Below, in pieces: positions 12,625 through 47,207 of a DNA stretch of 64,000 bases; within the stretch, counting starts at the first letter, position 1; each line of letters begins with the position of its first letter. A model generated the notes under the pieces. It was not told the DNA's origin. It saw nothing but the letters and a program-made list of their open reading frames with translations, and did not search any database. This DNA is from Shinella sp. SUS2. GTDB lineage: Bacteria; Pseudomonadota; Alphaproteobacteria; Rhizobiales; Rhizobiaceae. Where the stretch lies: positions 124,001-188,000 of the forward strand of contig NZ_KQ410732.1 of assembly GCF_001262505.1 (NCBI RefSeq). The letters run 5' to 3'. Both the position numbers and the translations under genes were made by a program.

Positions 12625-12627
12625 GGG

Positions 12628-13413: not shown

Positions 13414-13416
13414 CTC

Positions 13417-14283: not shown

Positions 14284-14332
14284 GGTCGTCTCCTGTGGTT
14301 CGGTTGGGTGGCGGCATTCTCAGTTGGGCTGG

Positions 14333-14470
14333 CCCCTCATCCGGCCTGCCGGCCACCTTCTCCCCGTAAACGGGGCGAAGGGGATAGGCCGCACCGTTTT
14401 CCGCAATGAGAACCGGTTCGTGGGGCAGGTCCCCTCTCCCCGCTTGCGGGGAGAGGGTTAGGGTGAGGGG
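14333..14470. repeat. RIME-like rhizobial intergenic mosaic repeat, copy 1
   Basis: A 138-bp GC-rich element bounded by inverted CCCCTCA/TGAGGGG ends, with two internal palindromes (CTTCTCCCCGTAAACGGGG and CCCTCTCCCCGCTTGCGGGG cores). It lies between the binding-protein gene and the first permease gene of the polyamine-type operon. A second copy in the opposite orientation occurs at 27180-27312. Its appearance matches the RIME elements described in Rhizobium and Sinorhizobium. Confidence 0.85.
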
Positions 14471-14488
14471 CAGTCGCCGCCGCAGGCC

Positions 14489-15559: not shown

Positions 15560-15604
15560 CACTGATACTCCCAGTAGCGCTCGCGTGAATTGTTCCTGCC
15601 GCGG

Positions 15605-20073: not shown

Positions 20074-20288
20074 CGAGCCATGAGGAAAACTAATAGTTAG
20101 GAATATATCTTTTGCATTGTTGCAGCGTCGGCTCAACAGTAATCCTACAGGGGCAGAACGAAAACCGACCGGATGTATCGTTCGCCAAGACCCGGAAAAT
20201 TCAGGTTGTTGCCTTCACTTCGGTGTCATGCGCTGGAAGGTGGGGCTGTGGGCGAGGCAATCCGGCGACACAACACGATGAGGGAACG

Positions 20289-21086
20289 ATGATGAGAAAA
20301 ATGGCGCTCTATGCGTGCACGGCGGTCGCGATCGTCCTGTCGGGGGCAGCATCGGCCGCAGCCGAGACGATCCGCATGGGTGCGGAAGGTGCCTATCCGC
20401 CCTTCAACTATGTTGCCGAGGATGGCCAGCTCAAGGGCTTCGACATCGATCTCGGCAACGCGATCTGCGCGGAGCTGAAGGCGGAATGCGTGTGGAGCAC
20501 CAACGAGTGGAGCGGCATCATTCCGGCGCTGCAGGCCAGCAAGTTCGACATCATCGCCTCGTCGATGGCGATCACGGAAGCGCGCAGGGAGCAGGTAAGC
20601 TTCTCCGAGCCGTACTATTTCAACGCCATGCGTTTCGTCGCGTCGAAGGACCTGGACCTGAAGGACGTCACGCCCGCCACCGCCGAGGGCATGGTGATCG
20701 GCACGCAGTCGGGCTCGATTGCGGCCGACATGCTCAAGGAGTTCTTCCCCGACAATGAGGTTAAGCTCTATCCGACGCTGGGCGAGGCCTTCCTCGACAT
20801 GAAGAGCAGCCGCCTCGACCTCCTGGTGGAATCGAAGATCGCCAGCGCGGATTGGCTGGCCAAGGGCGAGGACTGCTGCGTCTTCGTCGGCGAGGAGTTC
20901 CTCCAGGACGGTACGCTCGGCGCCGGTCTTGCCTTCCGCAAGGAGGACAACGCCCTTCGCGAGCGCGTGAACGCGGCGCTGGCGACCCTCGTCGGCAACG
21001 GCACCTATGAGACGATCCGCAAGAAATACTTCGACTTCGATATCCGTCAGAAGCCGAAGAATGCGAGCGAGCTGTTCGCAAAATAA
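20289..21086 (+). CDS. Polar amino acid ABC transporter substrate-binding protein (family 3)
   Basis: 265 residues. The signal peptide ends near SAAA-ETIRMG. Family-3 hallmarks are GAEGAYPPFNYVAEDGQLKGFDIDLGNAICAEL and the C-terminal NGTYETIRKKYFDFD. The closest functional class is ArgT/HisJ/AotJ/OccT, which take up basic amino acids and opines. The ATG at 20289 follows AGGGAAC; another ATG follows immediately. It heads an operon of two permeases, an ATPase and an M81 peptidase. A 12-bp perfect stem-loop separates it from the first permease gene. Confidence 0.92.
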   Translation: MMRKMALYACTAVAIVLSGAASAAAETIRMGAEGAYPPFNYVAEDGQLKGFDIDLGNAICAELKAECVWSTNEWSGIIPALQASKFDIIASSMAITEARREQVSFSEPYYFNAMRFVASKDLDLKDVTPATAEGMVIGTQSGSIAADMLKEFFPDNEVKLYPTLGEAFLDMKSSRLDLLVESKIASADWLAKGEDCCVFVGEEFLQDGTLGAGLAFRKEDNALRERVNAALATLVGNGTYETIRKKYFDFDIRQKPKNASELFAK

Positions 21087-21111
21087 TCCGGTCCTGACCG
21101 CATGAAACGTT

Positions 21112-21138
21112 GGCGCAGCCCGGCAACCGGGCTGCGCC
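21112..21138 (+). terminator. 12-bp perfect stem-loop between binding-protein and permease genes
   Basis: GGCGCAGCCCGG and CCGGGCTGCGCC with a CAA loop, 25 bp after the binding-protein stop. No T-run follows, which fits an intercistronic stabiliser or partial terminator. Confidence 0.75.
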
Positions 21139-21166
21139 CGCCGTCAGCCCTTGTCCGGACAGGTTC

Positions 21167-21892
21167 ATGAACCAGCTATCCCTTCTTGCCTTCGGCGCGG
21201 GCGGATGGGGCGACGAGATCCTTCGGGGCCTTGCCGTCACCCTCGCGCTGGCGCTGGCCACCTTTCCGGTGGCGATCGCGCTGTCCTTCGCCGTGCATTG
21301 GGCACGCACCGCGTCTTTGGCGCCGGTGCGGCTCTTCGGGCAGGCCTATGCGACGCTCTTCAAGAGCCTGCCGGAAATCCTGACGCTTCTCATCCTCTAC
21401 TACCAGGCCCAGGCGGTGCTGAACTGGCTGGCGCAGCGCCTATCGCCGGGAAGCGATTTCTCCATCAGCCCCTTCATCGCCGGGCTTGTCGCGCTCAGCC
21501 TCGTCATCAGCGCCTATGGCAGCGAGGTCGTGCGTGCAGCGATGAACGCGGTGGGCCGCGGGCAGTTCGAGGCGGCCGCGGCGCTGGGATTGTCCCCCAT
21601 GCGAGCGTTCCAGAAGGTGATCCTGCCGCAGCTCTGGCGCCATGCGCTGCCGGGCTTCGGCAATCTCTGGGTGATCCTCTTGAAGGATACCTCGCTCGTT
21701 TCGGTGATCGCGCTCAGCGACCTCACCCATGTCGCCGTCATGGCGATCAACACGACGCGCGAACCGTTCCTGTTCTATCTCGCCATCGGCGTGCTCTATG
21801 TCGCGTTGGTGACCCTGTCGTCACGGGCGCAGAAGGCACTGGAGCTGCGGGCATCACGCGGGTTTTCCGCCGCCGGAGGCTCGCATGCTTGA
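21167..21892 (+). CDS. Polar amino acid ABC transporter permease (HisQ-like)
   Basis: 241 residues from the ATG at 21167 (MNQLSLLAFGAGGWGDEILRG). It has five to six hydrophobic segments and the coupling motif EAAAALGLSPMRAFQKVILPQ. One of a pair of permeases for a family-3 importer. The frame is open upstream to 21110, but that stretch overlaps the intergenic stem-loop and is not expected to be translated. It overlaps the next permease gene by eight bases. Confidence 0.9.
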   Translation: MNQLSLLAFGAGGWGDEILRGLAVTLALALATFPVAIALSFAVHWARTASLAPVRLFGQAYATLFKSLPEILTLLILYYQAQAVLNWLAQRLSPGSDFSISPFIAGLVALSLVISAYGSEVVRAAMNAVGRGQFEAAAALGLSPMRAFQKVILPQLWRHALPGFGNLWVILLKDTSLVSVIALSDLTHVAVMAINTTREPFLFYLAIGVLYVALVTLSSRAQKALELRASRGFSAAGGSHA

Positions 21893-22562
21893 TCTCTGGT
21901 TCGACAATCTGCCGCTCTGGCGCGACGGCCTCCTCACCACGATCGGTCTCACCGTCTCGGCGGTCGTCATCGGCTTCTTCCTCGCTGTGCCGATCGGCGT
22001 GGCGCGTTCGCGCTCCAGGGGCGTGCTCGGCCTCCTTGCGCTCGGCTATGTCAACGTGCTGCGCGGCCTGCCACTCCTGGTGCTGTTGTTCCTCATCTAT
22101 TACGGCGTGGGCCAGTTCAACCGTGAACTCAGGCAGTTGGGGCTCTGGTGGTTCTTCCGTGACGCCACCTATTGCGGCCTTCTGGCTCTGGTGCTCAACA
22201 CCGCCGCCTACCAGGCCGAGATCATCCGCGGCAGCCTCGATACGATTTCCAAGTCTGTGCTTGAAACCAACGCGGCGCTCAACCTGACGCGCTGGACGGC
22301 CTTCCGGCGGGTGCTGTTGCCGATCGCGCTTTCCAAGGCGCTGCCGGCGCTCGGCAACGAGGTGATCCTGCTTCTGAAGTCCACCTCGCTCGTCGCCATC
22401 ATTACCGTCTTCGACCTGATGGGGCAGGCGCGGTTCATCTTCTCGAAGACCTTTGACCTTGGTGTCTATTACGTGGCGGCGGTGCACTATCTGGTCGTCG
22501 TCCTTCTCATCGAATGGGCCGTGCGGCGGATCGAGGCGCGCACGCCCTGGGTCGCGCGGTAG
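21885..22562 (+). CDS. Polar amino acid ABC transporter permease (HisM-like)
   Basis: 225 residues with five hydrophobic segments and coupling motif ETNAALNLTRWTAFRRVLLP. The short length and the NVLRGLPLLVLLFLIYYG segment are typical of HisM/GltK-type subunits. It begins inside the end of the preceding permease gene, so the two are translationally coupled, and ends nine bases before the ATPase gene. Confidence 0.92.
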   Translation: MLDLWFDNLPLWRDGLLTTIGLTVSAVVIGFFLAVPIGVARSRSRGVLGLLALGYVNVLRGLPLLVLLFLIYYGVGQFNRELRQLGLWWFFRDATYCGLLALVLNTAAYQAEIIRGSLDTISKSVLETNAALNLTRWTAFRRVLLPIALSKALPALGNEVILLLKSTSLVAIITVFDLMGQARFIFSKTFDLGVYYVAAVHYLVVVLLIEWAVRRIEARTPWVAR

Positions 22563-22571
22563 GAGAGCTTC

Positions 22572-23315
22572 ATGCAGCAGCAGCCCGCCGTCCGCTTCGA
22601 GCGGCTCAACAAGTTCTACGGCGCCTTTCATGTGCTGAAGGATATCGACCTTTCGGTCGCCCGCGGCGAGCGCATCGTGCTGTGCGGTCCGTCCGGCTCG
22701 GGAAAATCCACGCTGATCCGCTGTATCAACCGGCTGGAACCCCATCAGTCCGGCCGGCTGACTGTCGATGGCATCCTGCTCGACGATACGCCGAAGACCA
22801 TTCGCGCGGTGCGCAACCGGGTCGGCATGTGCTTCCAGCATTTCAACCTGATCCCGCACCTGACCGTGCTTGGCAACTGCACCCTGTCGCCGATCCATAC
22901 ACATGGCGTCGCGAAGGAAGAGGCGGAGGCGCTTGCCATGGCGCTGCTCGCGCGGGTGCGCATGGACGGCCATGCCGGCAAATATCCCCATCAGCTTTCC
23001 GGCGGCCAGCAGCAGCGTGTCGCCATCGCGCGCGGCCTCTGCCTCCGGCCTGAGATCATGCTCTTCGACGAGCCGACCTCCGCGCTCGATCCGGAATCGA
23101 TCGCCGAAGTGCTCGAGGTGATGGCCGGGCTTGCCGCCGAGGGCATGACGATGCTGTGCGTGACCCACGAAATGGGCTTCGCCCGCAAGGTCGCGGACCG
23201 CATCGTGTTCATGGAAAAGGGGGAAATCATCGAGGCGGTGCCGCCGGACGTGTTCTTCGGCGTCGACGCGAAGGAGCGGTCCCGACGTTTCCTCAGCCGT
23301 ATCGCGCAGAGCTGA
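22572..23315 (+). CDS. Polar amino acid ABC transporter ATP-binding protein (HisP/GlnQ-like)
   Basis: 247 residues: Walker A GPSGSGKST (39-47), Q-loop MCFQHFNLIPHLTVLGN, signature LSGGQQQRVAIARGL, Walker B IMLFDEPTSALDPE and H-loop VTHEMGFA are complete. The single nucleotide-binding domain with no regulatory tail is the norm in the polar amino acid family. It completes the importer encoded from 20289. The M81 peptidase gene follows after 111 bp. Confidence 0.93.
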   Translation: MQQQPAVRFERLNKFYGAFHVLKDIDLSVARGERIVLCGPSGSGKSTLIRCINRLEPHQSGRLTVDGILLDDTPKTIRAVRNRVGMCFQHFNLIPHLTVLGNCTLSPIHTHGVAKEEAEALAMALLARVRMDGHAGKYPHQLSGGQQQRVAIARGLCLRPEIMLFDEPTSALDPESIAEVLEVMAGLAAEGMTMLCVTHEMGFARKVADRIVFMEKGEIIEAVPPDVFFGVDAKERSRRFLSRIAQS

Positions 23316-23397
23316 CGGGGGCGTCATGGCTTCCTGAAACTTTGCGCCACCTCGAAAACCGGGCCGCATTCCGCATTTTTCCACGCCAGTTCATCGT

Positions 23398-23413
23398 CTG
23401 CCCTTGCGGGCAG
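23398..23413 (+). promoter_or_regulatory. Small hairpin directly before the ribosome-binding site of the M81 gene
   Basis: CTGCCC-TTGC-GGGCAG, immediately followed by the GGAAGGG Shine-Dalgarno. It could modulate translation of the peptidase or protect a processed 5' end. Confidence 0.35.
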
Positions 23414-23426
23414 GGAAGGGTATTTC

Positions 23427-24941
23427 ATGTCCTATCGTGTCGCCATCATAGAGTTCATCAACGAATCCAACACGTTCACGCTGAAGCGGACCGGGATCGA
23501 CGATTTCCGTGCCTCGCATTACTTCAAGGGCGATGAGATTCCGCAGAACTTCGCGGGCACGGGATCGGAAGTGGGCGGAGCGATGGAGGTTGCCCATGCG
23601 CGGGGCTGGACGCCGGTCTATATCGTTGCTGCCCACGCCGAACCGAACGGCATCATCCTTGAAGAGGCACGCGCGGAGATCACGCAGGAATGCCTGCGCC
23701 GGCTGAAGGAAAGCGGACCCTTCGACGGGATCTTCGTGGCGCTGCACGGCGCGATGGTGACGGAGACGGACGAGGACGGTGATTGCCAGTTCCTGCGGGA
23801 AATTCGTGCCGTGGTGGGGGATGCCGTGCCCGTCGCCATCACGCTGGACCTGCATGCCAACATCTTCGACGACCTGGCGGACCTTGCCCAGATCTCCGTT
23901 TCCTTCCGCACCTATCCGCATGTCGACATGCGGGAGGTCGGCGTCGAGGCCTGCGATCTGCTGCACCGGGCGATGGCCGGCGAGATCGCGCCGAAACTCG
24001 CCATCCGCCGCCCGCCCATGCTGCTCGGCTGCGACGACGGGCGCACGACGGACAACGGGCCGATGTGCCGCCTACTGGAAAAAGCGGCGGCGGAAGCAGC
24101 GGCGCCGGGCGTGCTCGCCGTCTCGATCAATGCCGGCTTCACCGATGCCGATGTCTGGGCCGCCGGGCCAAGCGTTGTCGTCACCTATGACAGCGCCACC
24201 GTGCCGGTCGCAGCGGCGGAGGGCGTCGGGGAAAGGCTCTGCGCGGCCATCTGGTCCTACCGCAACGAGTGGACGCAGCCGGTGCCGCTCTCGGCATGCA
24301 TCGCGGAACTGACGGACGCCGATCCCAGGGACGGCATCGTCGTGGTGGCGGATTTTTCCGACAATCCCGGATCGGGCGCCTATAGCGACTGCACGGCCCT
24401 GATCGCCGCCATGCTGGACGCGCAGCTCACCGATGCCGCCGCCGGGGCGTTGCTGGATCCCGATGCGGTCCGCGAGATCGCAGAGGCTGGCGTCGGGGCA
24501 AAGGTCACGGTGACGATTGGCGGGCGCACGGACCCGGCGGTCGGTGGCGGTCCCCTGACGGTGACCGGCACGGTGATGGCGATCACCGACGGCAGGTTCG
24601 TCTTCGAGGGGCCGATGTTCACCGGCCTGCCCGGCACCTGCGGCACGAGTGTTTGCCTGCGCGTCGATGGGCTCGACATCATGATCGTTTCCGAGCGCAT
24701 GCAGATGCTGGACAAGAACATCTTCCGCGCCGTCGGCATAGAGCCGACCAAAAGGGCGATCCTCGCGGTGAAATCCATGCAGCATTTCAAGGGCGCCTTC
24801 GGGCCGATCGCCGCGCGCATGATCGTGACGGATGCTGGCGGGCTGAGCTCGCCGGATCTTGCGCGCAGGACCTATACGCGCCTTCGCCGCCCGGCTTTTC
24901 CTCTGGATTCTGAACAGCTTGCTGCAGCGTCATCAAACTGA
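23427..24941 (+). CDS. M81 family metallopeptidase (MlrC/microcystinase C-like)
   Basis: 504 residues, full length for the family. Recognisable blocks are FINESNTFTLKRT near the N-terminus, VALHGAMVTETDEDGDC, ITLDLHANIFDDL and RTYPHVDMREVG, which include the predicted zinc ligands (Asp/His). MlrC of microcystin degraders is the namesake, but most homologues sit beside amino acid or peptide transporters in organisms that never meet microcystin. Here it follows a family-3 importer, so the natural substrate is probably a small imported amino acid conjugate. It is the last gene of that unit. Confidence 0.88.
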   Translation: MSYRVAIIEFINESNTFTLKRTGIDDFRASHYFKGDEIPQNFAGTGSEVGGAMEVAHARGWTPVYIVAAHAEPNGIILEEARAEITQECLRRLKESGPFDGIFVALHGAMVTETDEDGDCQFLREIRAVVGDAVPVAITLDLHANIFDDLADLAQISVSFRTYPHVDMREVGVEACDLLHRAMAGEIAPKLAIRRPPMLLGCDDGRTTDNGPMCRLLEKAAAEAAAPGVLAVSINAGFTDADVWAAGPSVVVTYDSATVPVAAAEGVGERLCAAIWSYRNEWTQPVPLSACIAELTDADPRDGIVVVADFSDNPGSGAYSDCTALIAAMLDAQLTDAAAGALLDPDAVREIAEAGVGAKVTVTIGGRTDPAVGGGPLTVTGTVMAITDGRFVFEGPMFTGLPGTCGTSVCLRVDGLDIMIVSERMQMLDKNIFRAVGIEPTKRAILAVKSMQHFKGAFGPIAARMIVTDAGGLSSPDLARRTYTRLRRPAFPLDSEQLAAASSN

Positions 24942-25021: not shown

Positions 25022-25049
25022 TTGACAATGTTTTAAACTGTGCTAATGT
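25022..25049 (+). promoter_or_regulatory. Candidate promoter of the lacI-led nucleoside operon
   Basis: A perfect -35 hexamer TTGACA occurs at 25022-25027. The -10 is unclear (TAATGT-like at 25044-25049, 16-bp spacing). The operator palindrome overlaps its downstream edge, a layout that suits repression. Confidence 0.45.
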
Positions 25050-25065
25050 GATTAAACGTTTAATC
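25050..25065. promoter_or_regulatory. Perfect 16-bp LacI-type operator
   Basis: GATTAAACGTTTAATC is self-complementary with a central CG, the standard architecture of LacI/GalR-family operators. It ends 16 bp before the GTG start of the LacI gene, so the repressor likely controls itself and the operon behind it. Confidence 0.8.
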
Positions 25066-25081
25066 ATGTCGGTGACCAGCC

Positions 25082-26128
25082 GTGAAGCCTTCGCGACCCA
25101 ACCTTTCGGAACTGGCGCGCCACCTTGGGGTGTCGATTGCGACGGTATCGAATGCGCTGTCGGGCAAGGGGCGGCTGTCGCCGGAACTTGCCAAGCGCAT
25201 CCGCGATGCGGCGGACGAATTGGGCTATGTGCCGAGCCAGGCGGGCAGGGCCCTGCGCACCGGCCGCAGCGGCGTTCTCGGCCTCGTTCTGCCCGATATC
25301 GGCAATCCGCTCTATCCGGAAATCGCGCAGGAAATCGAGCGCGTGGCGACGGGGGCGGGCTACGGCGTGCTGATCGCCAACTCGCGCGACGAGATCGCCG
25401 CGCAGGACAAGGCGATCTTCCAGCTCATCGAGCGCGGGGTGGACGGCATCGTCATCGTTCCCCGCCGCGGCACGACGGTGCCGGAAACGCGCTGCCCCAT
25501 TGCGATCATCGACACGCCGACGACCCCGCGCAACACCGTCTCGGCGGATCATTTCGCCGGCGGCGCGGAGGCTGCCGGCCATCTTGCTGCGCTCGGCCAC
25601 AGCAGGATCCTTCTGATCGGTGACGATCCGAGCTCGAATGTGCAGAACGCCCGTATCAATGGCATGCGTTCCGCGCTGTCGGGCATCAGGACGGAGACCA
25701 TCTGGATCGTCGAACTGGAGGCCCGGCACGGCAAGGGCTGTGCGCTCGGGCTTGCAGACTGGCGGAAGCGGGGCTTTACCGCCTTCGCCTGCGTCTCCGA
25801 TCCCCACGCACTGCGTGCGCTCACCGAGCTGCAATCGGCCGGCATCGCCATTCCGGCGGAGGCCAGCATCACCGGTTTCGACAATCTGCAATGGTCGTCC
25901 TTCATCTCGCCGCCGCTGACGACCGTGAAGATGAACATGCCGGAAATCGCGACGCTGGCGCTCGATGCGCTGGTCGAGGCGATCCAGTCCCGCGAGGCCT
26001 CGGACGACACGCCGAGCCCGCCCGTCACCGCTCGCAAGGCCGCCGTGCCGATGGAGCTTGTCATCCGCCGTTCCAGTGGTCCCGCGCCATCTGCCGGTTT
26101 TTTTGAGGAGGAGTCCCCGCATGCATAA
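25082..26128 (+). CDS. LacI-family transcriptional repressor
   Basis: 348 residues starting with GTG. The DNA-binding headpiece NLSELARHLGVSIATVSNALSGKGRLS with the hinge YVPSQAGRALRTGRSG is classical, and the core is a periplasmic-binding-protein fold (LVLPDIGNPLYPEIAQEIE; ITGFDNLQWSSFISPPLTTV). It is first in a codirectional series with overlapping genes encoding an ABC importer, nucleoside hydrolase, adenine deaminase, EamA exporter and M20 hydrolase, so the effector is probably a purine or nucleoside, as in PurR-type members. Its end overlaps the binding-protein gene by eight bases. Confidence 0.92.
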   Translation: MKPSRPNLSELARHLGVSIATVSNALSGKGRLSPELAKRIRDAADELGYVPSQAGRALRTGRSGVLGLVLPDIGNPLYPEIAQEIERVATGAGYGVLIANSRDEIAAQDKAIFQLIERGVDGIVIVPRRGTTVPETRCPIAIIDTPTTPRNTVSADHFAGGAEAAGHLAALGHSRILLIGDDPSSNVQNARINGMRSALSGIRTETIWIVELEARHGKGCALGLADWRKRGFTAFACVSDPHALRALTELQSAGIAIPAEASITGFDNLQWSSFISPPLTTVKMNMPEIATLALDALVEAIQSREASDDTPSPPVTARKAAVPMELVIRRSSGPAPSAGFFEEESPHA

Positions 26129-27143
26129 GAAAGTACTGGCCGCCAGCGTCTTCTGGCTCATGAGCGGAGCGCTTGCATCCGCCGAGGAGCAGACGCTGAC
26201 CATTTCCGTCTATGGCTTCGTCCAGGAGGAATTCACCGAGGCGCTCTACAAGCCCTTCGAGGCCGAATGCGGCTGCAAGCTGGTCGTCGAGACCGGCAAC
26301 AGCATCGAGCGCCTGGCCAAGCTGGACGCCAACAAGGACGCTCCGGTCATCGACATGGCCGTCTTCTCGCTTGCCGATGCGCTTTCCGCCGCGCGCAAGG
26401 GCCTGACCGACAAGATCGATACGACGAAGCTTTCCAACTACGACAAGCTCTATGATTTCGCCAAGGACCCGAACGGCGACGGCATGAGCGTCGGCTACAC
26501 GATCTACAAGACCGGCATCGCCTACCGCACCGACAAGATGAAGATCGAATCCTGGGCGGATCTCCTGAAGGACGACTATGCCGGCCATGTCGCCCTGCCG
26601 AACATCACCACCAACCAGGGTGGACCGGTGCTGAACATGATCGGCAAGGCGCTCGGCAAGGATTCACCCGATCTCAAGGATGCCATGGCCGCCGTCGGCG
26701 AGAAGCGCGACGAGTTCGTCACCTTCTACGTCAAGAGCTCGCAGCTCGTGCAGCTCATGCAGCAGGAAGAGATCTGGGCCGCGCCGATGGGGCACTTCTC
26801 CTGGGCCGGCATCTCGAAGCTGGACCTGCCGATCGGCTGGGCCGCCACCAAGGAAGGCGACGCCGGCGATATGAACGCCATGGTGCTCGTCAAGGGCTCC
26901 AAGAACCAGGAATTGGCCCTGAAGTTCATGGATTTCTGGCTTTCGACGCCGATGCAGACCAAGATCGCCGAAATGCTGATCGACAGCCCGGCGAACAAGG
27001 AAGTCGTCGTCGCGCCCGAGATCGCCGAAAAGCTGACCTACGGCGCTGACGTCGCCAACAAGCTGACCTTCCTGCCGGCCGCCACCACCCTCGACTACCG
27101 TGAGAAGTGGCTTGCCGAGTGGAACGCGACGGTCGCGCAGTAA
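26121..27143 (+). CDS. ABC transporter substrate-binding protein (family 1/PotD-like), predicted nucleoside or purine binder
   Basis: 340 residues with a signal peptide (MHKKVLAASVFWLMSGALA, then SAEE). The mature part (LTISVYGFVQEEFTEALYKPFEAECGC cut here; IDMAVFSLADALSAARKGL; GVAYRTD-like GIAYRTDKMKIESWADLL) belongs to the iron/polyamine cluster of binding proteins. The ATG is inside the lacI 3' end behind GAGGAGGAG. Gene order, not the sequence, points to nucleosides: a nucleoside hydrolase and adenine deaminase lie in the same operon. A RIME-like repeat occupies the 281-bp gap to the first permease gene. Confidence 0.85.
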   Translation: MHKKVLAASVFWLMSGALASAEEQTLTISVYGFVQEEFTEALYKPFEAECGCKLVVETGNSIERLAKLDANKDAPVIDMAVFSLADALSAARKGLTDKIDTTKLSNYDKLYDFAKDPNGDGMSVGYTIYKTGIAYRTDKMKIESWADLLKDDYAGHVALPNITTNQGGPVLNMIGKALGKDSPDLKDAMAAVGEKRDEFVTFYVKSSQLVQLMQQEEIWAAPMGHFSWAGISKLDLPIGWAATKEGDAGDMNAMVLVKGSKNQELALKFMDFWLSTPMQTKIAEMLIDSPANKEVVVAPEIAEKLTYGADVANKLTFLPAATTLDYREKWLAEWNATVAQ

Positions 27144-27179
27144 AAGGCGTTCTGAACCGAAGGCGATCGCACTAAGTTG

Positions 27180-27312
27180 CCCCTCACCCTCTCCCCGCAA
27201 GCGGGGAGAGGGGACTTGCCCTACGAACCGTTGAGGAATTGGGCAAGCCGGCACGGCATATCTCCTTCGCCCCGCTTGCGGGGGGAAGGTGGCCGGCAGG
27301 CCGGATGAGGGG
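27180..27312. repeat. RIME-like rhizobial intergenic mosaic repeat, copy 2
   Basis: 133 bp, opposite in orientation to copy 1 at 14333-14470. Both share the CCCCTCACCCT end, the CTCCCCGCAAGCGGGGAGAG palindrome, a CCTTCGCCCCG core, and the GGTGGCCGGCAGGCCGGATG end. It fills the space between a binding-protein gene and its first permease gene. Confidence 0.87.
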
Positions 27313-27424
27313 CAATCTCTATACGCGACCGCTCCCCCTCGTGGGGAGATGCCGGCAGGCAGAGGGAAGCCCTCTGCGCTTCCCATCACCCCGAACCGCT
27401 GCCCTCTTTTCGGCAGGAGCACGC

Positions 27425-28252
27425 ATGTTTCAAAATCGCGCTGAAGCCTTGGCGCTGGCCTTGCCGGCCGCCGTCTTTGCGACCGTCATCTTCCTGGTGC
27501 CCGTGGTCATCGTGCTGGCGGAAGGCTTTCGCAGCCCGGCCGGCTGGACCTTCTCGGCCTATACAAACTTCTTCTCCGAGCCACTGAACAGGCTGGTTCT
27601 GCTGCGCACGTTCAAGCTCGGCATCGCCGTGACGGTGGCGTCCGCCATCATCGGTTATGCCGCCGCCTTTGCGATCGTCAATCTCAGCGCCTCCGGCAAG
27701 GGGCGCATGATCGGCCTCATCTCGCTGCCGCTGATGATCTCGCCGGTCGCGCGCACCTATGCCTGGATCGTCATCCTCGGCCGCACCGGCATCGTCAACC
27801 AGGCGCTGCAGGCCGTCGGCCTCAGCGACGAGCCGATCCGCCTGCTCTTTACCGAGACGGCCGTCTTTATCGGCCTCCTGCAGCTCTTCCTGCCGCTGAT
27901 GATCCTGTCGCTGATCAGCGCGCTGGAAAACATGCCCAAGGATGCCATCCTCGCCGCCCGGGTGCTCGGCGCCAACTGGTTCCAGGTTTTCTGGAAGGTC
28001 ATCCTGCCCTTGACGCGCGAAGGCCTCGTTGTCGGCGGCACTCTGGTCTTCACCGGTTCGCTGACGGCCTACATCACGCCCGCCATCCTCGGCGGCTCCA
28101 AGGTGCTGATGCTGGAGACGTTGCTCTTCCAGCGCGTCACCGTCGCCAACGACTTTGTCTCCGCAAGCGTCATCGCCTTCATCCTGATCGCCATGTGCTT
28201 TGCCGCGAACCTTCTCCTGAAACGGCTCGCCACCGCGAGGAACAAGCGATGA
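27425..28252 (+). CDS. ABC transporter permease (PotB/PotH-like), nucleoside operon
   Basis: 275 residues with six membrane segments starting MFQNRAEALALALPAAVFA. The coupling motif is AARVLGANWFQVFWKVILPL. The frame is open far upstream through the RIME-like repeat, but the ATG at 27425 is the natural start, with GGCAGGAG upstream. Its TGA overlaps the ATG of the next permease gene (ATGA), so the two products are made together as the membrane heterodimer. Confidence 0.9.
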   Translation: MFQNRAEALALALPAAVFATVIFLVPVVIVLAEGFRSPAGWTFSAYTNFFSEPLNRLVLLRTFKLGIAVTVASAIIGYAAAFAIVNLSASGKGRMIGLISLPLMISPVARTYAWIVILGRTGIVNQALQAVGLSDEPIRLLFTETAVFIGLLQLFLPLMILSLISALENMPKDAILAARVLGANWFQVFWKVILPLTREGLVVGGTLVFTGSLTAYITPAILGGSKVLMLETLLFQRVTVANDFVSASVIAFILIAMCFAANLLLKRLATARNKR

Positions 28253-29025
28253 ACCGCACGCTGTCCTTCACCATCCTCACCGCGCTGATCGTCTTCCTGA
28301 TCGGTCCGTTCCTGATCATCGTCGCCGCCTCGCTTTCGGCCGGCGATACGCTTGTCTTCCCGCCGCAGGGCCTGTCGCTCAAATGGGTGCTGAAGGTCTT
28401 CACCGTCGAGAGTTTCCGCGACAGCTTCATCATGTCGATGATCCTCGCCGTCGGCGGCACCTTCGTCGCGCTGTTGCTCGGCGTGCCGGCGGCCTATGCG
28501 CTGTCGCGCTACAAGCTGCCCTTCGGCGAGACGATCAACACCATCGTTACCCTGCCGATCATCGTGCCCGGCATCATCGTCGGTCTCGCGCTCCTGCGCT
28601 ATCTCGTCGTGCCCTTCAGTTTCTCGATCGGCGTCGCGCTGTTCCTTGCCCATACGGCCCTCGTGCTGCCCTATACGGTGCGCGTCGTCTCCTCCAGCTT
28701 CAACAACCTGCGCTCCGACATGGAGGAGGCGGCGGTGCTGCTCGGCGCCACCCGCCTCGGCGCCTTCTTCATGGTGGTGCTGCCGAACATCCGGGCGGGC
28801 ATTCTCGCCGCCTTCATCCTCGGCTTCGTAACGAGCTTCAACCAGGTGCCCGTCTCGCTGTTCCTGTCCGGTCCTGGCGTGCGCACGCTGCCCATCGACA
28901 TGCTCTCCTACATGGAAACCACCTACGATCCCTCCGTCGCTGCGCTGTCGGCCCTTCTGGCCCTGATGTCGATCGGCATCGTCTTCCTCGCAGAACGCTT
29001 CCTTGGATTCTCCCGCTATGTCTGA
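28249..29025 (+). CDS. ABC transporter permease (PotC/PotI-like), nucleoside operon
   Basis: 258 residues with six membrane segments and the coupling motif EEAAVLLGATRLGAFFMVVLP. The start overlaps the previous stop by four bases. It pairs with the permease encoded at 27425. The end overlaps the ATPase gene by eight bases, continuing the chain of overlapping genes that runs through this operon. Confidence 0.9.
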   Translation: MNRTLSFTILTALIVFLIGPFLIIVAASLSAGDTLVFPPQGLSLKWVLKVFTVESFRDSFIMSMILAVGGTFVALLLGVPAAYALSRYKLPFGETINTIVTLPIIVPGIIVGLALLRYLVVPFSFSIGVALFLAHTALVLPYTVRVVSSSFNNLRSDMEEAAVLLGATRLGAFFMVVLPNIRAGILAAFILGFVTSFNQVPVSLFLSGPGVRTLPIDMLSYMETTYDPSVAALSALLALMSIGIVFLAERFLGFSRYV

Positions 29026-30046
29026 TCGCGCTTTCCTCTCCCTCGAAAACCTGACGCTCTCCTACGGCAATTCGATCGCCGTCGACAAATTCAACCTCGA
29101 CATCAGGAAGGGCGAACTCGTCGCCTTTCTCGGCCCGTCCGGCTGCGGCAAGACGACGACCATGCGCTCGATCGCCGGCCTCCTGACGCCGACCTCCGGT
29201 CGCATCACGCTCGACGGCACGGACATCACCCGCGTTTCCGCCAACAAGCGCAATGTCGGCCTGGTCTTTCAGTCCTACGCGCTCTTCCCGCATCTGACCG
29301 TTTTCGAAAACGTCGCCTTCGGTCTGCGTTTGAAGCGCATGCCGGCCGCCGACATCGAGGCGCGTGTCACCGCCGGCCTGAAGTCGGTCGGCCTTTCCGC
29401 CTTCTCCGGCCGCAAGCCGGCGGAACTTTCCGGCGGCCAGCAGCAGCGCGTGGCGCTCGCCCGTTCCATGGTCATGGAGCCGAAGGTGCTCTTGCTCGAC
29501 GAGCCGCTCTCCAATCTCGATGCGCGCCTGCGCGTCGAGATGCGCGCCGAGCTGCAGCGCGTGCAGAAGGAGACCGGGGTCACCATGATCTTCGTCACCC
29601 ACGACCAGGCCGAAGCCCTGTCGCTCGCCGACCGCATCGTCGTGATGCGTGACGGCCTGGTCGAGCAGATCGGCACGCCTGAGGAAATCTACAACAACCC
29701 CGTCTCTTCCTTCGTCGCCGACTTCGTCGGATTCGAAAATGTCTTCGCGCTGAAGGACGGCAAGCTTGCTACGCCCGCGGGCGCGACCGCGCTTGCCGAG
29801 ACGCTGCCCGGCAATGCCGCGGGTCTTGCCTGGCGCCCGGCAGGCGTCGTGCTCGATGCCGGCCCGTTCAGGGGCAAGGTGAAGAGCGTTTCCTTCACGG
29901 GCAATCTGCGCGAATACCTGCTCGACACGCCGCTCGGCCCCATCACGGCCGAGGTCAGTGCCGCGCTGCCGGTCCATGCGCTCGGTGCTGACCTCGCCTT
30001 CGACCTGCCGCTGAAGGCCGCTGCGCCCCTCCAGCGTTTCGCGTGA
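29018..30046 (+). CDS. ABC transporter ATP-binding protein (PotA-like), nucleoside operon
   Basis: 342 residues from the ATG at 29018. Walker A GPSGCGKTT (39-47), signature LSGGQQQRVALARSM, Walker B LLLDEPLSNLDARL and H-loop VTHDQAEAL are intact, followed by a shorter TOBE region (LAWRPAGVVLDAGPF). Its last codons overlap the GTG of the nucleoside hydrolase gene (GTGA), which ties import directly to cleavage of the imported compound. Confidence 0.92.
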   Translation: MSDRAFLSLENLTLSYGNSIAVDKFNLDIRKGELVAFLGPSGCGKTTTMRSIAGLLTPTSGRITLDGTDITRVSANKRNVGLVFQSYALFPHLTVFENVAFGLRLKRMPAADIEARVTAGLKSVGLSAFSGRKPAELSGGQQQRVALARSMVMEPKVLLLDEPLSNLDARLRVEMRAELQRVQKETGVTMIFVTHDQAEALSLADRIVVMRDGLVEQIGTPEEIYNNPVSSFVADFVGFENVFALKDGKLATPAGATALAETLPGNAAGLAWRPAGVVLDAGPFRGKVKSVSFTGNLREYLLDTPLGPITAEVSAALPVHALGADLAFDLPLKAAAPLQRFA

Positions 30047-30975
30047 CGGCGATGGGCGTCTGGATCGATACGGATATGGGGTTCGACGACATCGCCGCCA
30101 TCCTCGTGGTGGCGCATGCGAGGGAGCCCATCGACGGCATATCGCTGGTCTTCGGCAATTCCGGCTTTGCGCAGGTGCGGCAGAATGCGGCCTCGGCTGC
30201 CGCAGCCTTCGGCTGGAGCTTCCCCCTCCACGACGGCCGGTCCGTGCCGGTCCTGGGCCGTCTCGAAACCGCGGAAAACATCCTTTCCGAAGCCGGCATG
30301 CTGACCGCCGGCCGCAGCCTGCCGCCGGCGCCGCTGCTGCCGGAGAGCGATGCCTTCTCGGCCCTCTGCCATTGGCTGGAGACGACGGAAAGCCCGCGCC
30401 GCATCCTCGCCCTCGGCCCGCTCACCAACATCGCCGCGCTCGCGCTCGCCCGGCCGGATCTGGCGAAGAAGATCGACGATCTTACCTGGATGGGCGGCGG
30501 CGTCACCGCCGGCAACCACACGGCCTCGGCCGAATTCAACGCCTTCGCCGACCCGGAAGCGCTCGCCATCGTGCTCGCCCATGGCCTGCCGCTGCGCATG
30601 GTCGATCTCGACCTCTGCCGCAAGGTCGTCGCTTTTCCGGACGACGCCGCGCCGGTCCGCACTGCAGGCGGGCGGAATGCCGACCTTCTGGCCGATCTTC
30701 TTGCCGGATACATCTCCATCGGGACAAGCCGTGGCCGCCCCGGCATGGCCATCTACGACCCTTGCGCTGCCGTCGTCTTCGTGCGACCGGAGCTGGTGAC
30801 CTTTACTGCTGCTCGCATCGACGTGGAACTGTCCGGAATGCTGACCCGTGGACGCACGGTTGTGGATGTTCGCGCCGCCGCGGAAAGACGCAATGCCGCC
30901 TTCGTCTCCGATATCGACGTGGATGCCGCCCGTGCGGTCATCCTTGGCGCGCTGACTGCGGAGGCGCAGCGATGA
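30043..30975 (+). CDS. Nucleoside hydrolase (IUNH family)
   Basis: 310 residues. The calcium/ribose-binding signature appears as WIDTDMGFDDIAAI (usual form DTDPGxDD, here with Met for Pro), followed by GISLVFGNSGFAQVRQNA and later GVTAGNHTASAEFNAFADPEA, the second metal/substrate segment. These enzymes split purine or pyrimidine nucleosides into base and ribose. GTG at 30043 overlaps the ATPase stop; an ATG at 30052 is the alternative start. Together with the next gene (adenine deaminase) it would convert imported adenosine-type nucleosides to hypoxanthine. Confidence 0.9.
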   Translation: MTAMGVWIDTDMGFDDIAAILVVAHAREPIDGISLVFGNSGFAQVRQNAASAAAAFGWSFPLHDGRSVPVLGRLETAENILSEAGMLTAGRSLPPAPLLPESDAFSALCHWLETTESPRRILALGPLTNIAALALARPDLAKKIDDLTWMGGGVTAGNHTASAEFNAFADPEALAIVLAHGLPLRMVDLDLCRKVVAFPDDAAPVRTAGGRNADLLADLLAGYISIGTSRGRPGMAIYDPCAAVVFVRPELVTFTAARIDVELSGMLTRGRTVVDVRAAAERRNAAFVSDIDVDAARAVILGALTAEAQR

Positions 30976-32762
30976 CCGGCCGGACCGACGCTAGCGACCT
31001 CGACGACGAGACCCTGAGGGAAAACGCCGTCGCGGCGGCCCGCGGCGACCGCGCCTTCGATATCCTCATCCGTGGCGGCACGCTGGTCGACATGGTGACG
31101 GGCGAGTGCCGCTCTGCCGATATCGGCCTCGTCGGCCCGCTGATTGCGAGCGTTCATGCGCCGGATGCCCGGCAGGATACGGCGGAGATAGTCGACGCCA
31201 CCGGGCTCTTCGTCTCACCCGGCCTCATCGATACGCATATGCATGTCGAAAGCTCGATGATCACCCCCGCGGCCTATGCCGCGGCGACGCTGCCGCGCGG
31301 CGTCACCACGCTTGTCTGGGATCCACACGAGCTCGGCAATGTGCACGGTGTCGCCGGTGTCGACTGGGCGGCGGAGGCAGCCGGCGCGCTGGCGCAGCGC
31401 AATGTGCTGCTTGCACCCTCCTGCGTGCCGTCCGCGCCGGATCTGGAAATGGCAGGCGCTGATTTTCCCGCGGAAACCATCGCCGCACTGCTCGCCCGCC
31501 CGGAGATCGGCGGCATTGCCGAGGTGATGGACATGCGCGCCGTCATCGAGGGGAGGGCACGCATGAGCGCCATCCTCGCTGCCGGACGCCGGTCCGGCAA
31601 GCCGATCCACGGCCATGCGCGCAGCCTGGACGGTGCCGATCTGCAGGCTTTCGTGACGTCGGGTATCAGCTCCGATCATGAGATCGTCTCCGGTGAGGAC
31701 CTCGTGCAGAAACTGCGTGCCGGCCTCACCATCGAATTGCGCGGTTCGCACGATCACCTTCTTCCCGAATGCGTCGCGGCCCTCAACGCGCTGCCCCACT
31801 TCCCGCAGACGGTGACGCTGTGCACCGACGACGTCTTCCCGGACGACCTTTTTTCCGCCGGCGGCCTCGATGACGTGGTGCGCCGCCTTGTGCGCTACGG
31901 CATGAAGCCGGAATGGGCCTTGCAGGCCGCCACGCTGAACGCTGCCCGCCGCATCCGCCGCGACGATCTCGGCCTCATCGCTCCCGGCCGCCGGGCCGAT
32001 ATCGTGCTGTTCCGGGATCTTGCCGATTTTCAAGCGAAACGGGTCTTTTGCAGCGGTCGTCTTGTTGCCCGTGATGGTGCCCTCATCGAAGCGGCACAGG
32101 AAATCGACGCGGCGCCGCTCCGCGGCTCCATGCATCTTGCGCCGCTCGTGGATGATGATTTCCGTATTCCCTGTGCGGGCAGCGAGGCGACCGTCGCCCT
32201 GATCGCCAAACCGCGCTTCACCGAATGGGGCGAGGCCGTCGCGAAGGTCGAGAACGGCTTTGTCGTTCCGCCCGCCGGAACCACGCTGATCGCGGTGGCA
32301 CATCGGCACGGCAAGACGGATGCACGCCCTCGCGTCGGCCTCCTGTCCGGCTGGGGTGACTGGCGCGGCGCGCTTGCCACCACCGTCTCGCATGACAGCC
32401 ATAACCTCACGGTCTTCGGTAGCAACACGCGGGACATGGCCGTGGCGGCCAATGCGGTGATTGCCGCCGGCGGCGGCATGGCCGTAGCGGCGGAGGGCAA
32501 GGTGCTGGCGCTGCTCGCGCTGCCGCTCTCCGGCCTGATTTCCGATGCGCCGCTTGAGGACGTGGCCGCGACCTTCTCGGCGCTGCGCACCGCGGCCGAT
32601 GGCATCGTCGACTGGCAACCGCCCTATCTGGTGTTCAAGGCCGTTTTCGGCGCGACGCTCGCTTGCAATGCCGGCCCGCACCAGACCGACCGCGGCATCG
32701 CCGACGGCACGACCGGCGTGCTGCTCAAAAACCCGGTCTTGAGTATTCGGGGCCTTCCGTGA
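30972..32762 (+). CDS. ade: Adenine deaminase
   Basis: 596 residues, normal for the Ade family. The diagnostic metal motif is GLIDTHMHVESSM, followed by WDPHELGNVHG, the GHARSLDGADL helix and the TLCTDDVFPDDL segment; a C-terminal domain carries SHDSHNLTVFGSN. It deaminates adenine to hypoxanthine with ammonia release. Start ATG overlaps the nucleoside hydrolase stop by four bases and its own stop overlaps the next GTG, so it is embedded in the operon. With the nucleoside hydrolase it defines the pathway served by the ABC importer upstream. Confidence 0.93.
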   Translation: MTGRTDASDLDDETLRENAVAAARGDRAFDILIRGGTLVDMVTGECRSADIGLVGPLIASVHAPDARQDTAEIVDATGLFVSPGLIDTHMHVESSMITPAAYAAATLPRGVTTLVWDPHELGNVHGVAGVDWAAEAAGALAQRNVLLAPSCVPSAPDLEMAGADFPAETIAALLARPEIGGIAEVMDMRAVIEGRARMSAILAAGRRSGKPIHGHARSLDGADLQAFVTSGISSDHEIVSGEDLVQKLRAGLTIELRGSHDHLLPECVAALNALPHFPQTVTLCTDDVFPDDLFSAGGLDDVVRRLVRYGMKPEWALQAATLNAARRIRRDDLGLIAPGRRADIVLFRDLADFQAKRVFCSGRLVARDGALIEAAQEIDAAPLRGSMHLAPLVDDDFRIPCAGSEATVALIAKPRFTEWGEAVAKVENGFVVPPAGTTLIAVAHRHGKTDARPRVGLLSGWGDWRGALATTVSHDSHNLTVFGSNTRDMAVAANAVIAAGGGMAVAAEGKVLALLALPLSGLISDAPLEDVAATFSALRTAADGIVDWQPPYLVFKAVFGATLACNAGPHQTDRGIADGTTGVLLKNPVLSIRGLP

Positions 32763-33661
32763 ACGCACCCGCCAACACCACCGCTCTATCGGCCAGCACC
32801 GGTCTCTTGCTGCCGGCGATCTTTGTGCCGCTCTGGTCGAGCGGCTTCGTGCTGGCGCGGCTCGTCGCACCCCATGCGGAGCCGCTGACCTTCCTTGCCG
32901 TGCGCTTCTGCCTTGCCTTTCTGGCACTCGCTGCCATCGCGCTCTGGAAGGGGGCCCGCTGGCCGCGCGCGGCGCGGGAATGGCGACAGGCGCTGCTTGC
33001 CGGCGTGCTGATCCACGGGCTTTATCTCGGTGGTGTCTTCTGGTCGGTGGCAAACGGCCTGCCGACGGCGATTTCCGCGCTGATGGCGGGCATGCAGCCG
33101 CTGCTCGTGACGTTGCTGGCCGGCCGGCTGCTCGGTGAGCGCATGTCGCGGCGCGGCGCCATCGGCATCGTCATCGGCGCCATCGGCACGCTGGTCACCC
33201 TGGCGCCGAAGCTCGGCGCGACGGATGCCGGCGGCATTCCTCTCGTGCCGCTTCTCGTCTGCCTTGCGGGCGTGCTTGCTATTACCACCGGCTCCATCCT
33301 GGTCAAGCGCACCAGGATCACCGCCGATCCGCTGACCAACACCGCTGCACAATATATCGGCGCGCTGGTGCCGACTGCGATCCTCGTGCCCTTCGTCGGC
33401 GGGCCGGCCTTCGATACGACGGCGGTGCCGTTGTGGATCGGCCTTGCCTGGTCGGTTTTCGGCATGTCGCTCGGGGCGATCCTCTTGCTCCTGCACATGA
33501 TCCGCCAGGGCGCGCTGTCCAAGGTGTCGTCGCTCTTCTTCCTCGTGCCTGGCGTCTCGGCCCTGATGGCCTGGATCGGTTTTGGCGAAAGCCTCACCCT
33601 GGTCCAGATTGCCGGCCTCTGCATCGCCACGCTCGGCGTTTCCCTTGCCAGCCGCGGCTAA
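32759..33661 (+). CDS. EamA/DMT-family transporter
   Basis: 300 residues with ten hydrophobic segments in two EamA repeats (PAIFVPLWSSGFVLARLVAP; second repeat near PLTNTAAQYIGALVPTAI). The GTG start overlaps the adenine deaminase stop (GTGA). Proteins of this family export metabolites, often amino acids or, in some cases, purine bases and nucleosides (for example RhtA- or YdcZ-like relatives). In this operon it could release a surplus base or product; that is inference from position. Confidence 0.87.
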   Translation: MNAPANTTALSASTGLLLPAIFVPLWSSGFVLARLVAPHAEPLTFLAVRFCLAFLALAAIALWKGARWPRAAREWRQALLAGVLIHGLYLGGVFWSVANGLPTAISALMAGMQPLLVTLLAGRLLGERMSRRGAIGIVIGAIGTLVTLAPKLGATDAGGIPLVPLLVCLAGVLAITTGSILVKRTRITADPLTNTAAQYIGALVPTAILVPFVGGPAFDTTAVPLWIGLAWSVFGMSLGAILLLLHMIRQGALSKVSSLFFLVPGVSALMAWIGFGESLTLVQIAGLCIATLGVSLASRG

Positions 33662-33677
33662 ACTGACAGGAACCACC

Positions 33678-34979
33678 ATGACCCTTGCCGAGATGATCGC
33701 CACCAGCAATGCGCCCGCCGTCACCGTGCGCCGCGACCTGCATCGCCATCCGGAAACGGCCTTCCTCGAATACCGTACCGCCTCGCGCGTTGCCGCCTAT
33801 CTCGACCATCTCGGTTTTGCCGTGCGCACCGGCCGGGACGTGATGGATCCAGCCGTCGTCATCGATCCGCCCTCGGCCGAGGTGGTGGTGGCAGCAAAGC
33901 AGGCGGCTCTTGCCACGGGCGGCGATCCCGCCTGGATGGACCGTATGCCGGCAGGCCTTACCGGGGTCGTCGCGGACTATCGTTTTGGCGACGGGCCGAT
34001 CGTCGCCTTCCGCTTTGACATGGATGCGCTGCCGGTCAACGAGACCGGGGCCGAGACGCACCGGCCGAATGCGGAGGACTACCGCTCGCGTTTTGCCGGC
34101 CGCATGCATGCCTGCGGTCATGATGGCCATGTTGGCATCGGCCTTGCGCTCGCCCGCCGGCTTTGCGCGGAGAAGGGACTTTCCGGCACTCTGCGCCTGA
34201 TCTTCCAGCCGGCGGAGGAAAGCGCCCGCGGTGCCGCGCCCATGGTGGCGGGCGGCGCGGTCGACGCTGTCGATCATCTCTTTGTCGGCCATCTCGGCTG
34301 CCTGTTGCCGTCCGGCAGGATCGGTGCCAGCGCTGTCGGCTTCCTGTTTTCCAGCCGCTTTGTCGTCACGTTCCGCGGGGCTGTCGCCCATGCGGCGATG
34401 GGGCCGCAGGAGGGGCGCAACGCACTGCTGGCCGGGGCCTCGGCGGCGCTCGGCTTGCACGGCATTTCGCGTTTTGCCGGTGCGGAAACCTTCGTCAATG
34501 TCGGCGTTCTGCGCGCCGGCACGGCCTTCAACATCGTGGCCGACACCTGCGAGATGCTGGTGGAGGTGCGGGCCGACGACCGTGCGGCGCACGACTACAT
34601 GGTCGAGCGGCTGCACGCGGTCATCGAGGGCGCCGCCGCCATGCAGCAATGCGGCGTGGATATCGTTCGCAAGAACCACATGCCCGGCAACGAGAACAGC
34701 GGGGACGCCACCGACCTCATCGCCGACGTGGCGCGTGGCCTGCCCGGCGTCACCGAGGTGCTGCCGGAATGGTCGATCGGGGGGGGCGACGATGCCTGCC
34801 TGATGATCCGCCATGTGCGGGAGAACGGCGGCTCGGCCGCCTATTGCATCATCGGCAGCGATATACCAGCCGTGCACCACGCTGCTGATTTCGATATCGA
34901 CGAGGCATCGCTCGAAACTGGCGTCGCGCTGTTTGCCGGCATCGCGCAGCGTCTGCTGGGTGGCGAAGCGCGCGCATAG
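33678..34979 (+). CDS. M20-family amidohydrolase (AbgB / aminobenzoyl-glutamate hydrolase-like)
   Basis: 433 residues. Zinc-binding blocks are RRDLHRHPETAFLEYRT at the start, FDMDALPVNE, HACGHDGHVGIGLALA and QPAEESARGAAPM, with a dimerisation domain between. The insertion-rich N-terminal part resembles the AbgB/HipO branch of M20D. It would cut an amide bond in an N-acyl amino acid or similar conjugate. It is the last gene of the lacI operon, 16 bp after the EamA gene. How it relates to nucleoside use is not clear; it may process another imported conjugate. Confidence 0.87.
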   Translation: MTLAEMIATSNAPAVTVRRDLHRHPETAFLEYRTASRVAAYLDHLGFAVRTGRDVMDPAVVIDPPSAEVVVAAKQAALATGGDPAWMDRMPAGLTGVVADYRFGDGPIVAFRFDMDALPVNETGAETHRPNAEDYRSRFAGRMHACGHDGHVGIGLALARRLCAEKGLSGTLRLIFQPAEESARGAAPMVAGGAVDAVDHLFVGHLGCLLPSGRIGASAVGFLFSSRFVVTFRGAVAHAAMGPQEGRNALLAGASAALGLHGISRFAGAETFVNVGVLRAGTAFNIVADTCEMLVEVRADDRAAHDYMVERLHAVIEGAAAMQQCGVDIVRKNHMPGNENSGDATDLIADVARGLPGVTEVLPEWSIGGGDDACLMIRHVRENGGSAAYCIIGSDIPAVHHAADFDIDEASLETGVALFAGIAQRLLGGEARA

Positions 34980-47195: not shown

Positions 47196-47207
47196 GTGGG
47201 ATCTTCC

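Follow-up and report, generated by a model that had tools for sequence, protein, structure and literature searches.

Organization of the locus

We analysed a predicted operon in Shinella sp. SUS2 that is located in a stretch of 64,000 nucleotides on contig 10 of the 7.0 Mb genome; this whole stretch is called the window, and all positions follow its numbering. Nine genes on the plus strand (25,082-34,979, or 25,022-34,979 including the putative promoter) encode, judged from their sequences, an ATP-binding cassette (ABC) importer of the PotD class with predicted specificity for purine nucleosides, combined with a repressor and purine-cleaving enzymes. The first gene, lacI (25,082-26,128, GTG start), encodes a LacI-family repressor with the Pfam domains LacI and Peripla_BP_3. 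It is followed by sbp (26,121-27,143), whose product is a periplasmic binding protein of the PotD/FbpA class by Pfam family and fold, by the permease genes perm1 (27,425-28,252, PotB/PotH type) and perm2 (28,249-29,025, PotC/PotI type), both with a BPD_transp_1 domain, and by the gene of an ATPase with a single ABC domain (29,018-30,046; one stretch of ABC_tran). The next two genes encode a nucleoside hydrolase (30,043-30,975, GTG start; IU_nuc_hydro, 219.7 bits) with Leu and Tyr replacing a His pair, and an adenine deaminase (30,972-32,762) of the Atu4426 (PDB 3nqb) type with the amidohydrolase domain Amidohydro_1 and the C-terminal domain Adenine_deam_C. An EamA/DMT transporter (32,759-33,661, GTG start; Pfam EamA) and an AbgA-like M20 hydrolase (33,678-34,979; Peptidase_M20) complete the series.

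At six of the eight junctions the genes overlap, by either four or eight bases. Eight bases are shared by lacI and sbp and by perm2 and the ATPase gene, ATGA junctions join perm1 to perm2 and the hydrolase to the deaminase gene, and GTGA junctions join the ATPase to the hydrolase and the deaminase to the EamA gene. An earlier note on this DNA had described nine genes in one direction with mostly overlapping junctions; this arrangement was borne out, and Pfam concurred with every protein family that it had named. At the start given there, 25,022, a TTGACA box begins. The two gapped junctions are those of EamA and M20 (16 bases) and of sbp and perm1, where a gap of 281 bases, absent from the earlier note, contains an intergenic inverted repeat (27,178-27,298, strand not applicable) found in an inverted-repeat search. 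A palindromic intergenic element, CCCTCTCCCCGC-N2-GCGGGGAGAGGG, has two copies in the window (14,432-14,457 and 27,187-27,212; none expected by chance), the second of which falls between the binding-protein and permease genes.

Conservation of the seven-gene core

The first seven genes (lacI, sbp, perm1, perm2 and the genes of the ATPase, nucleoside hydrolase and adenine deaminase) constitute what we call the core. It was examined in 80 named loci, whose binding proteins (56-97% identity) are the best of at least 295 confirmed relatives; these loci were picked as close relatives of sbp, and the counts describe the core family rather than all PotD-like proteins. The core is contiguous, collinear and on a single strand in 79 of these loci, and the nucleoside hydrolase gene is contiguous in all 80. 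According to the record titles most loci belong to Rhizobiales, and others to Rhodobacterales (Haematobacter, Salipiger, Pseudooceanicola and others) and Thalassospira. Among named records, the most similar binding proteins (97% identity) are encoded on Shinella plasmids. Of 297 genomes drawn from the order, 16 including our own held an sbp relative of at least 50% identity, and all seven genes were present in 14 of 16 loci of this identity outside the own genome; one further locus (L046; such labels are our own) had no lacI match. Among 385 genomes drawn from the class, 5, again including our own, matched the binding protein at E 1e-70 or better. The seven genes are also present on pSymB of S. 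meliloti 1021, and the same core is found on Haematobacter and Loktanella plasmids. A rearranged version, with the deaminase gene ahead of the hydrolase gene and a binding protein of 42% identity, occurs in Deinococcus sp. QL22. The earlier note had made its proposal depend on a gene order conserved beyond this strain, and the named loci, pSymB and the loci of the order attest such conservation.

As a control, 14-20 kb around each place in the own genome with a paralogous PotD-like binding protein was searched by tblastn with the window's hydrolase and deaminase (E 1e-5). At none of these 11 other places was a hydrolase or deaminase match found. Because the core is contiguous in nearly all named loci and the paralogous places show no such matches, we reject a chance neighbourhood of importer and purine genes.

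The periplasmic binding protein and its transporter

The importer has the gene set of the PotD and PotF systems: a binding protein of the PotD/FbpA fold class, PotBC-like permeases and a PotA-like ATPase. It thus resembles PotABCD and PotFGHI of E. coli in the fold of the binding protein, the two BPD_transp_1 permeases and the PotA-like ATPase with one domain, yet its proteins lie far below the NCBIfam cut-offs. The binding protein, which exceeds neither equivalog cut-off, scored 55.4 bits against PotD (cut-off 582) and 27.3 bits against PotF (cut-off 636). The best matches of the permeases were PotB for perm1 (140.3 bits, cut-off 348) and PotC for perm2 (112 bits, cut-off 326), and those of the ATPase were PhnT2 and PotA, both under cut-off. 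It also differs from the E. coli systems in that the operon holds purine genes and in that most carboxylates and the Trp box of the polyamine pocket are missing.

This loss was derived from an alignment of 104 core sequences to PotF and PotD, at about 20-26% identity (values for 15 rows). In PotD, E36 and D257 are amine-binding carboxylates. The roles of the PotF residues and of most PotD residues were taken from passages of PMC8666671. We compared the amine-holding carboxylates D39, E185, D247 and D278 of PotF and E36, D168, E171 and D257 of PotD, and only the position of D39/E36 is still acidic, with Asp in 101 and Glu in 3 of the 104 sequences. PotF D247 is replaced by Ser, Ala or Thr, E185 by Ala, Thr, Ser or Val, and D278 by Asn in all 104 sequences; Val or Ile stands in place of PotD D168, and Asn, Thr or Ser in place of E171. 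The aromatic-box residues Trp229/Trp244 are replaced by Gly throughout. By alignment, most of the polyamine-pocket carboxylates and the Trp box are lost in the core binding proteins. In FbpA-class binders of ferric ions two adjacent tyrosines bind the iron; at positions 201-203 the core family reads Thr-Phe-Tyr.

Among the closest structures by fold are binders of agropinic acid, mannopine, gamma-aminobutyric acid (GABA) and glucose-6-phosphate. The titles of the two best matches, 4edp, a binding protein of Clostridium perfringens, and 3pu5, name no ligand. Record NZ_OZ000531.1 annotates the protein as "polyamine ABC transporter substrate-binding protein". We found no experimental work on this importer in the open-licence literature.

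The BmpA systems are the known ABC importers of nucleosides, and the presumed substrate class of our importer is that of BmpA/PnrA-NupABC. Its binding protein differs from theirs in having no Bmp domain (PF02608; Pfam, E 0.001), its permeases are of the BPD_transp_1 type, and its ATPase has one ABC domain, whereas the Bmp loci of the own genome mostly have two ATPase matches in a row. No entry of the BmpA fold was among the 50 structure matches listed, which carries no weight as evidence. A PF02608 search revealed five BmpA-type places in the own genome, none of them the operon's binding protein. Two of these five likewise have a nucleoside hydrolase match nearby, and one has a partial deaminase match of 32% identity. 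The BmpA-type genes at C27:35173-40616 and C3:316604-322397 have other nucleoside hydrolase genes within about 5 kb. Since these five places exist in the same genome, the PotD-type importer would be an additional route, and we reject the idea that it replaces the BmpA systems.

Nucleoside hydrolase and adenine deaminase

Besides the IU_nuc_hydro domain, the hydrolase retains the DxDxGxDD motif as DTDMGFDD. It has Leu at the column of RihA His82 and Tyr at that of RihA His240 (His241 of reviews). In an alignment of 107 hydrolase rows, which include near-copies and rows of the second set described below, Leu is present in 101 and Tyr in 97. Passages of two reviews (PMC8910321, PMC10526354) divide these enzymes into groups I, II and III with His, Trp and Cys, respectively, before the last calcium-binding Asp; groups I and II have His or Trp in the beta3-alpha3 loop. 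Some cases of proline at these places are described as well, and the pair Leu/Tyr appears in none of these passages. The operon's enzyme, in which the loop residue is Leu and the last calcium-binding Asp is preceded by Tyr, fits none of the three groups and is possibly an undescribed active-site type, as far as its sequence tells. Five nucleoside hydrolase places and two adenine-deaminase C-terminal domains occur in the own genome. Three of its four other hydrolases (L172, L173, L175) keep His at both places, as judged by eye.

The deaminase matched 3nqb, "Adenine deaminase 2" (Atu4426), over residues 6-594 with an E value of 2.6e-255. Atu4426 is likewise very close to the deaminase in the copy of the operon in A. 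tumefaciens UMA610, which gave 1168 bits over 594 residues to 3nqb. It deaminates unmethylated adenine (PMC12133300), and the literature passages on it treat it as an enzyme and mention no transporter operon. Two adenine deaminases of R. etli are listed in such passages without operon information.

Putative operator and promoter

A candidate promoter on the plus strand (25,022-25,049) consists of TTGACA (25,022-25,027), a spacer of 16 bases and TAATGT (25,044-25,049), a weak -10 element. Directly downstream is a candidate LacI operator, the perfect palindrome GATTAAACGTTTAATC (25,050-25,065, strand not applicable); no other site of the 7.0 Mb genome matches it with 2 mismatches or fewer. Its core is conserved upstream of lacI: TTAAWCGWTTAA, a pattern derived from the same loci in which it was counted, was found there in 74 of the 80 named loci, and elsewhere in the 1.39 Mb of these loci it has no match. 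A palindrome scan upstream of lacI, which gave a CG centre a one-point advantage and hence was not blind, recovered the same motif in most of 101 loci. TTGACA-like hexamers (0 or 1 mismatch) were present up to 50 bases upstream of TTAAWCGWTTAA in 68 of 74 loci versus 225 of 1480 random stretches of the same loci, most often beginning 31-34 bases ahead of the operator core. A generic consensus promoter scan reported no promoter, and terminator-like sites in the consensus scan were at about the shuffled level (9 versus a shuffled mean of 7.5).

Every listed NCBIfam match of the lacI product is far below its cut-off. With its local lacI gene preceded by a conserved CG-centred palindrome, the operon has the arrangement of an AdeR-type LacI regulon. 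Ravcheev et al. (2014) described three local LacI regulators of nucleoside utilization, AdeR, HpxR and UriR (PMC4052901), and the operon resembles these regulons in having such a regulator; the passages on AdeR give neither its taxa nor its genes. Because LacI regulators of nucleoside use, AdeR among them, were predicted in that work, the system as a whole is less new. The layout of operator and promoter sequences fits a local autorepressor. AdeR may conceivably be the regulator of this very operon. SM_b21272, which may belong to the S. meliloti operon, is listed among LacI factors in passages that do not mention its function.

Lineage-specific and neighbouring genes

Among the 80 named loci, the EamA and AbgA-like M20 genes occur in one only (Shinella yambaruensis). 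EamA was also found in the close plasmid loci L039, L192, L193 and L194, two of which bear the names Roseateles sp. XES5 (marked unverified) and Sinorhizobium sp. RAC02. The M20 enzyme, whose nearest solved structure is the aminobenzoyl-glutamate utilization protein 3io1 (E 1.9e-89), has copies of 85-90% identity only in L039, L082, L192, L193 and L194 among the loci examined. By this distribution the two genes are additions of one lineage, and we reject them as part of a conserved pathway. Import, base release and deamination, three steps of the chain drawn in the earlier note, are supported by the context of the conserved core order. The fourth, export of surplus, does not belong to the conserved system, since EamA and this M20 were found only in the closest relatives of the window.

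A different M20 enzyme, an aminoacylase with 72-94% identity to that of S. meliloti, adjoins the operon in 51 of the 80 named loci (e.g. L072:20448-22478), in 47 of them on the opposite strand, and the solved structures closest to it are those of ordinary N-acyl-amino-acid hydrolases. As the best match to the S. meliloti enzyme in the own genome is only 49% identical, the lineage of the window has a different M20 in its operon. A phosphoribosyltransferase gene is found beside the operon in 37 of the 80. On a plasmid of S. meliloti RCAM1115 the operon is followed by genes for an M20 hydrolase, a phosphoribosyltransferase, an NCS2 permease, allantoicase and allantoinase, and by uraH and xdhA, the last of these genes beginning about 7.4 kb past the operon. 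In the own genome, xdhA adjoins a TIGR03212 (PuuE-type, allantoinase-type) gene elsewhere.

Directly upstream of the operon (20,112-24,941) the genes read as a polar-amino-acid ABC importer, with a binding protein nearest to lysine/arginine/ornithine types and under cut-off, and end with an M81 (MlrC-type) gene. L039, L082 and L194 carry the M81 gene as well; L192 and L193 do not. A second PotABCD-like importer is encoded on the minus strand (11,509-15,562); its ATPase scored 356.1 against a cut-off of 355.6 for the polyamine ATPase subfamily, and the annotation of L039 at this importer shows an ATPase, two permeases and a binding protein beside a flavin adenine dinucleotide (FAD) oxidoreductase and cupins. 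Two minus-strand genes (45,117-48,977) exceed the NCBIfam cut-offs of the alpha and beta subunits of caprolactamase, CapA (1240.8, cut-off 1000) and CapB (1096.6, cut-off 1000).

A wider purine-linked branch

Beyond the core family, seven of the nine loci of a second set with binding proteins of 30-36% identity (L056, L057, L060, L062, L065, L078, L079) have the binding-protein gene near deaminase and/or hydrolase genes. The aminoacylase M20 and the phosphoribosyltransferase are found beside the operons of L056 and L057, and the M20 alone by L065. Three other operons (L060:2194-7006, L079:13729-18569, L078:13759-18369) enclose a carbon-nitrogen hydrolase, annotated as N-carbamoyl-D-amino-acid hydrolase in named records, together with an XRE-family regulator and an adenine-deaminase-like protein. 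L060 has in addition an N-carbamoyl-L-amino-acid hydrolase, and L079 and, by annotation, L078 have an alanine-racemase/BhcC-like enzyme; neither the carbon-nitrogen hydrolases nor the BhcC-like enzyme reached the cut-off in any NCBIfam match. In a tree of the binding proteins the core clade was supported by 100/97. The purine-linked proteins do not form one clade, and their 4 label changes were not reached by any of 500 shuffles, while the long branches of PotD, PotF, L070 and L080 leave the deep joins unsure.

Proposed function and alternative explanations

With a probability of about 0.7, the genes form a LacI-regulated operon for the uptake of purine nucleosides, most likely adenosine, and for the use of base and ribose. 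The binding protein would catch the nucleoside in the periplasm, and the two permeases and the single-domain ATPase would carry it inward as in PotABCD/PotFGHI. In the cytoplasm the hydrolase would release adenine and ribose, and the deaminase would convert adenine into hypoxanthine and ammonia. Hypoxanthine may then enter salvage or be passed to xanthine dehydrogenase and ring degradation. In the absence of substrate, LacI bound to the palindrome just downstream of the promoter would block transcription until a ligand, either a purine or a nucleoside, frees it. The core order, the operator, the kinship of the deaminase, the loss of carboxylates and the control on paralogous places support import, base release and deamination. 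The purine-breakdown genes past the operon of RCAM1115, the xdhA and PuuE-type genes of the own genome and the seven purine-linked binding proteins of the second set also speak for this reading; the ligands of the binding protein and of LacI and the direction of flow are what we infer from this context. The earlier note had proposed an importer of the polyamine/iron class devoted to nucleosides or purines, and the context supports this idea: conserved purine gene order and the missing polyamine carboxylates speak for it.

Several observations weigh against nucleoside uptake as the function. One named locus, L093, has no deaminase gene, and L049 from the draw of the order has neither deaminase nor hydrolase, on a contig of 9.2 kb that leaves 2.3 kb past the ATPase gene. 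A plasmid of Paroceanicella profunda has the order lacI-sbp-perm-perm-ATPase-deaminase without the hydrolase. In the second set, L058 and L077 have no such purine genes nearby, and in a third set of nine binding proteins with 28-34% identity (L059, L061, L063, L064, L066-L069, L081) no deaminase or hydrolase was found in the stretches examined. The hydrolase is without both group-I histidines, so that activity on adenosine is not to be taken for granted, and it is placed in the cytoplasm because it has no obvious signal peptide, as judged by eye. The deaminase reached 357.4 bits against NCBIfam TIGR01178, below the cut-off of 472.5. A genome with BmpA-type genes at five places, at two of them beside another nucleoside hydrolase, needs a reason for a second adenosine importer. 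Finally, the pocket argument comes from an alignment at low identity and not from a ligand-bound structure.

An importer for the free base, adenine or another purine, would leave the hydrolase to nucleosides that enter otherwise or arise inside the cell. The operon of Paroceanicella profunda, the gene order in Deinococcus sp. QL22 and the action of the deaminase on the base are in line with this explanation, which we nevertheless consider unlikely, since the hydrolase, contiguous in every named locus, is the more constant partner there than the deaminase. Polyamine import that happens to adjoin purine genes would account for the fold, the gene set, the annotation of NZ_OZ000531.1 and the one position that is still acidic. 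The replacement of the other carboxylates and of the Trp box across the core sequences, the PotD score at about a tenth of its cut-off and a purine linkage too constant for an accident oppose it, and from pocket residues and family scores we judge it very unlikely, with next to no weight left. The ligands of the nearest structures by fold would rather suggest an opine-like or amino-acid-like compound or a sugar phosphate; the constant association of the importer with two purine enzymes and a repressor of its own makes such a ligand a slim prospect.

Adenosine with an N6 side chain linked by an amide or urea bond, such as N6-threonylcarbamoyl-adenosine (t6A) from the breakdown of transfer RNA (tRNA), is a further candidate, in which case adjacent amide or urea hydrolases would strip the side chain before the deaminase acts. 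The aminoacylase M20 and the phosphoribosyltransferase beside many core operons, their recurrence at L056, L057 and, for M20, L065 despite the low identity of the binding proteins, the carbon-nitrogen hydrolases in the operons of L060, L078 and L079, the different M20 within the window's operon and the unusual active site of the nucleoside hydrolase would all agree with it. However, the neighbouring M20 gene is mostly on the opposite strand and hence not co-transcribed, its product has ordinary relatives, and the carbon-nitrogen hydrolases and the BhcC-like enzyme score under their cut-offs. Plain breakdown of the purine ring via allantoate and glyoxylate would also accommodate N-carbamoyl hydrolases and BhcC-type enzymes. 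We therefore regard this substrate as improbable. A broader version, in which the operon and its distant cousins would form a dismantling line for modified adenosines from RNA turnover, leading from a polyamine-class importer and a hydrolase of an undescribed active-site type without the histidines through M20 or N-carbamoyl hydrolases and the deaminase to purine breakdown, appears about as improbable.

Implications

Since the operon is present on pSymB of S. meliloti, a laboratory strain is available for experiments on it. In the hydrolase without the histidines, one could study a further mode of leaving-group activation. If the binding protein takes nucleosides, the proteins annotated as polyamine-binding include a mis-named purine branch, and ABC importers would have reached nucleoside uptake via a second class of binding proteins besides BmpA.

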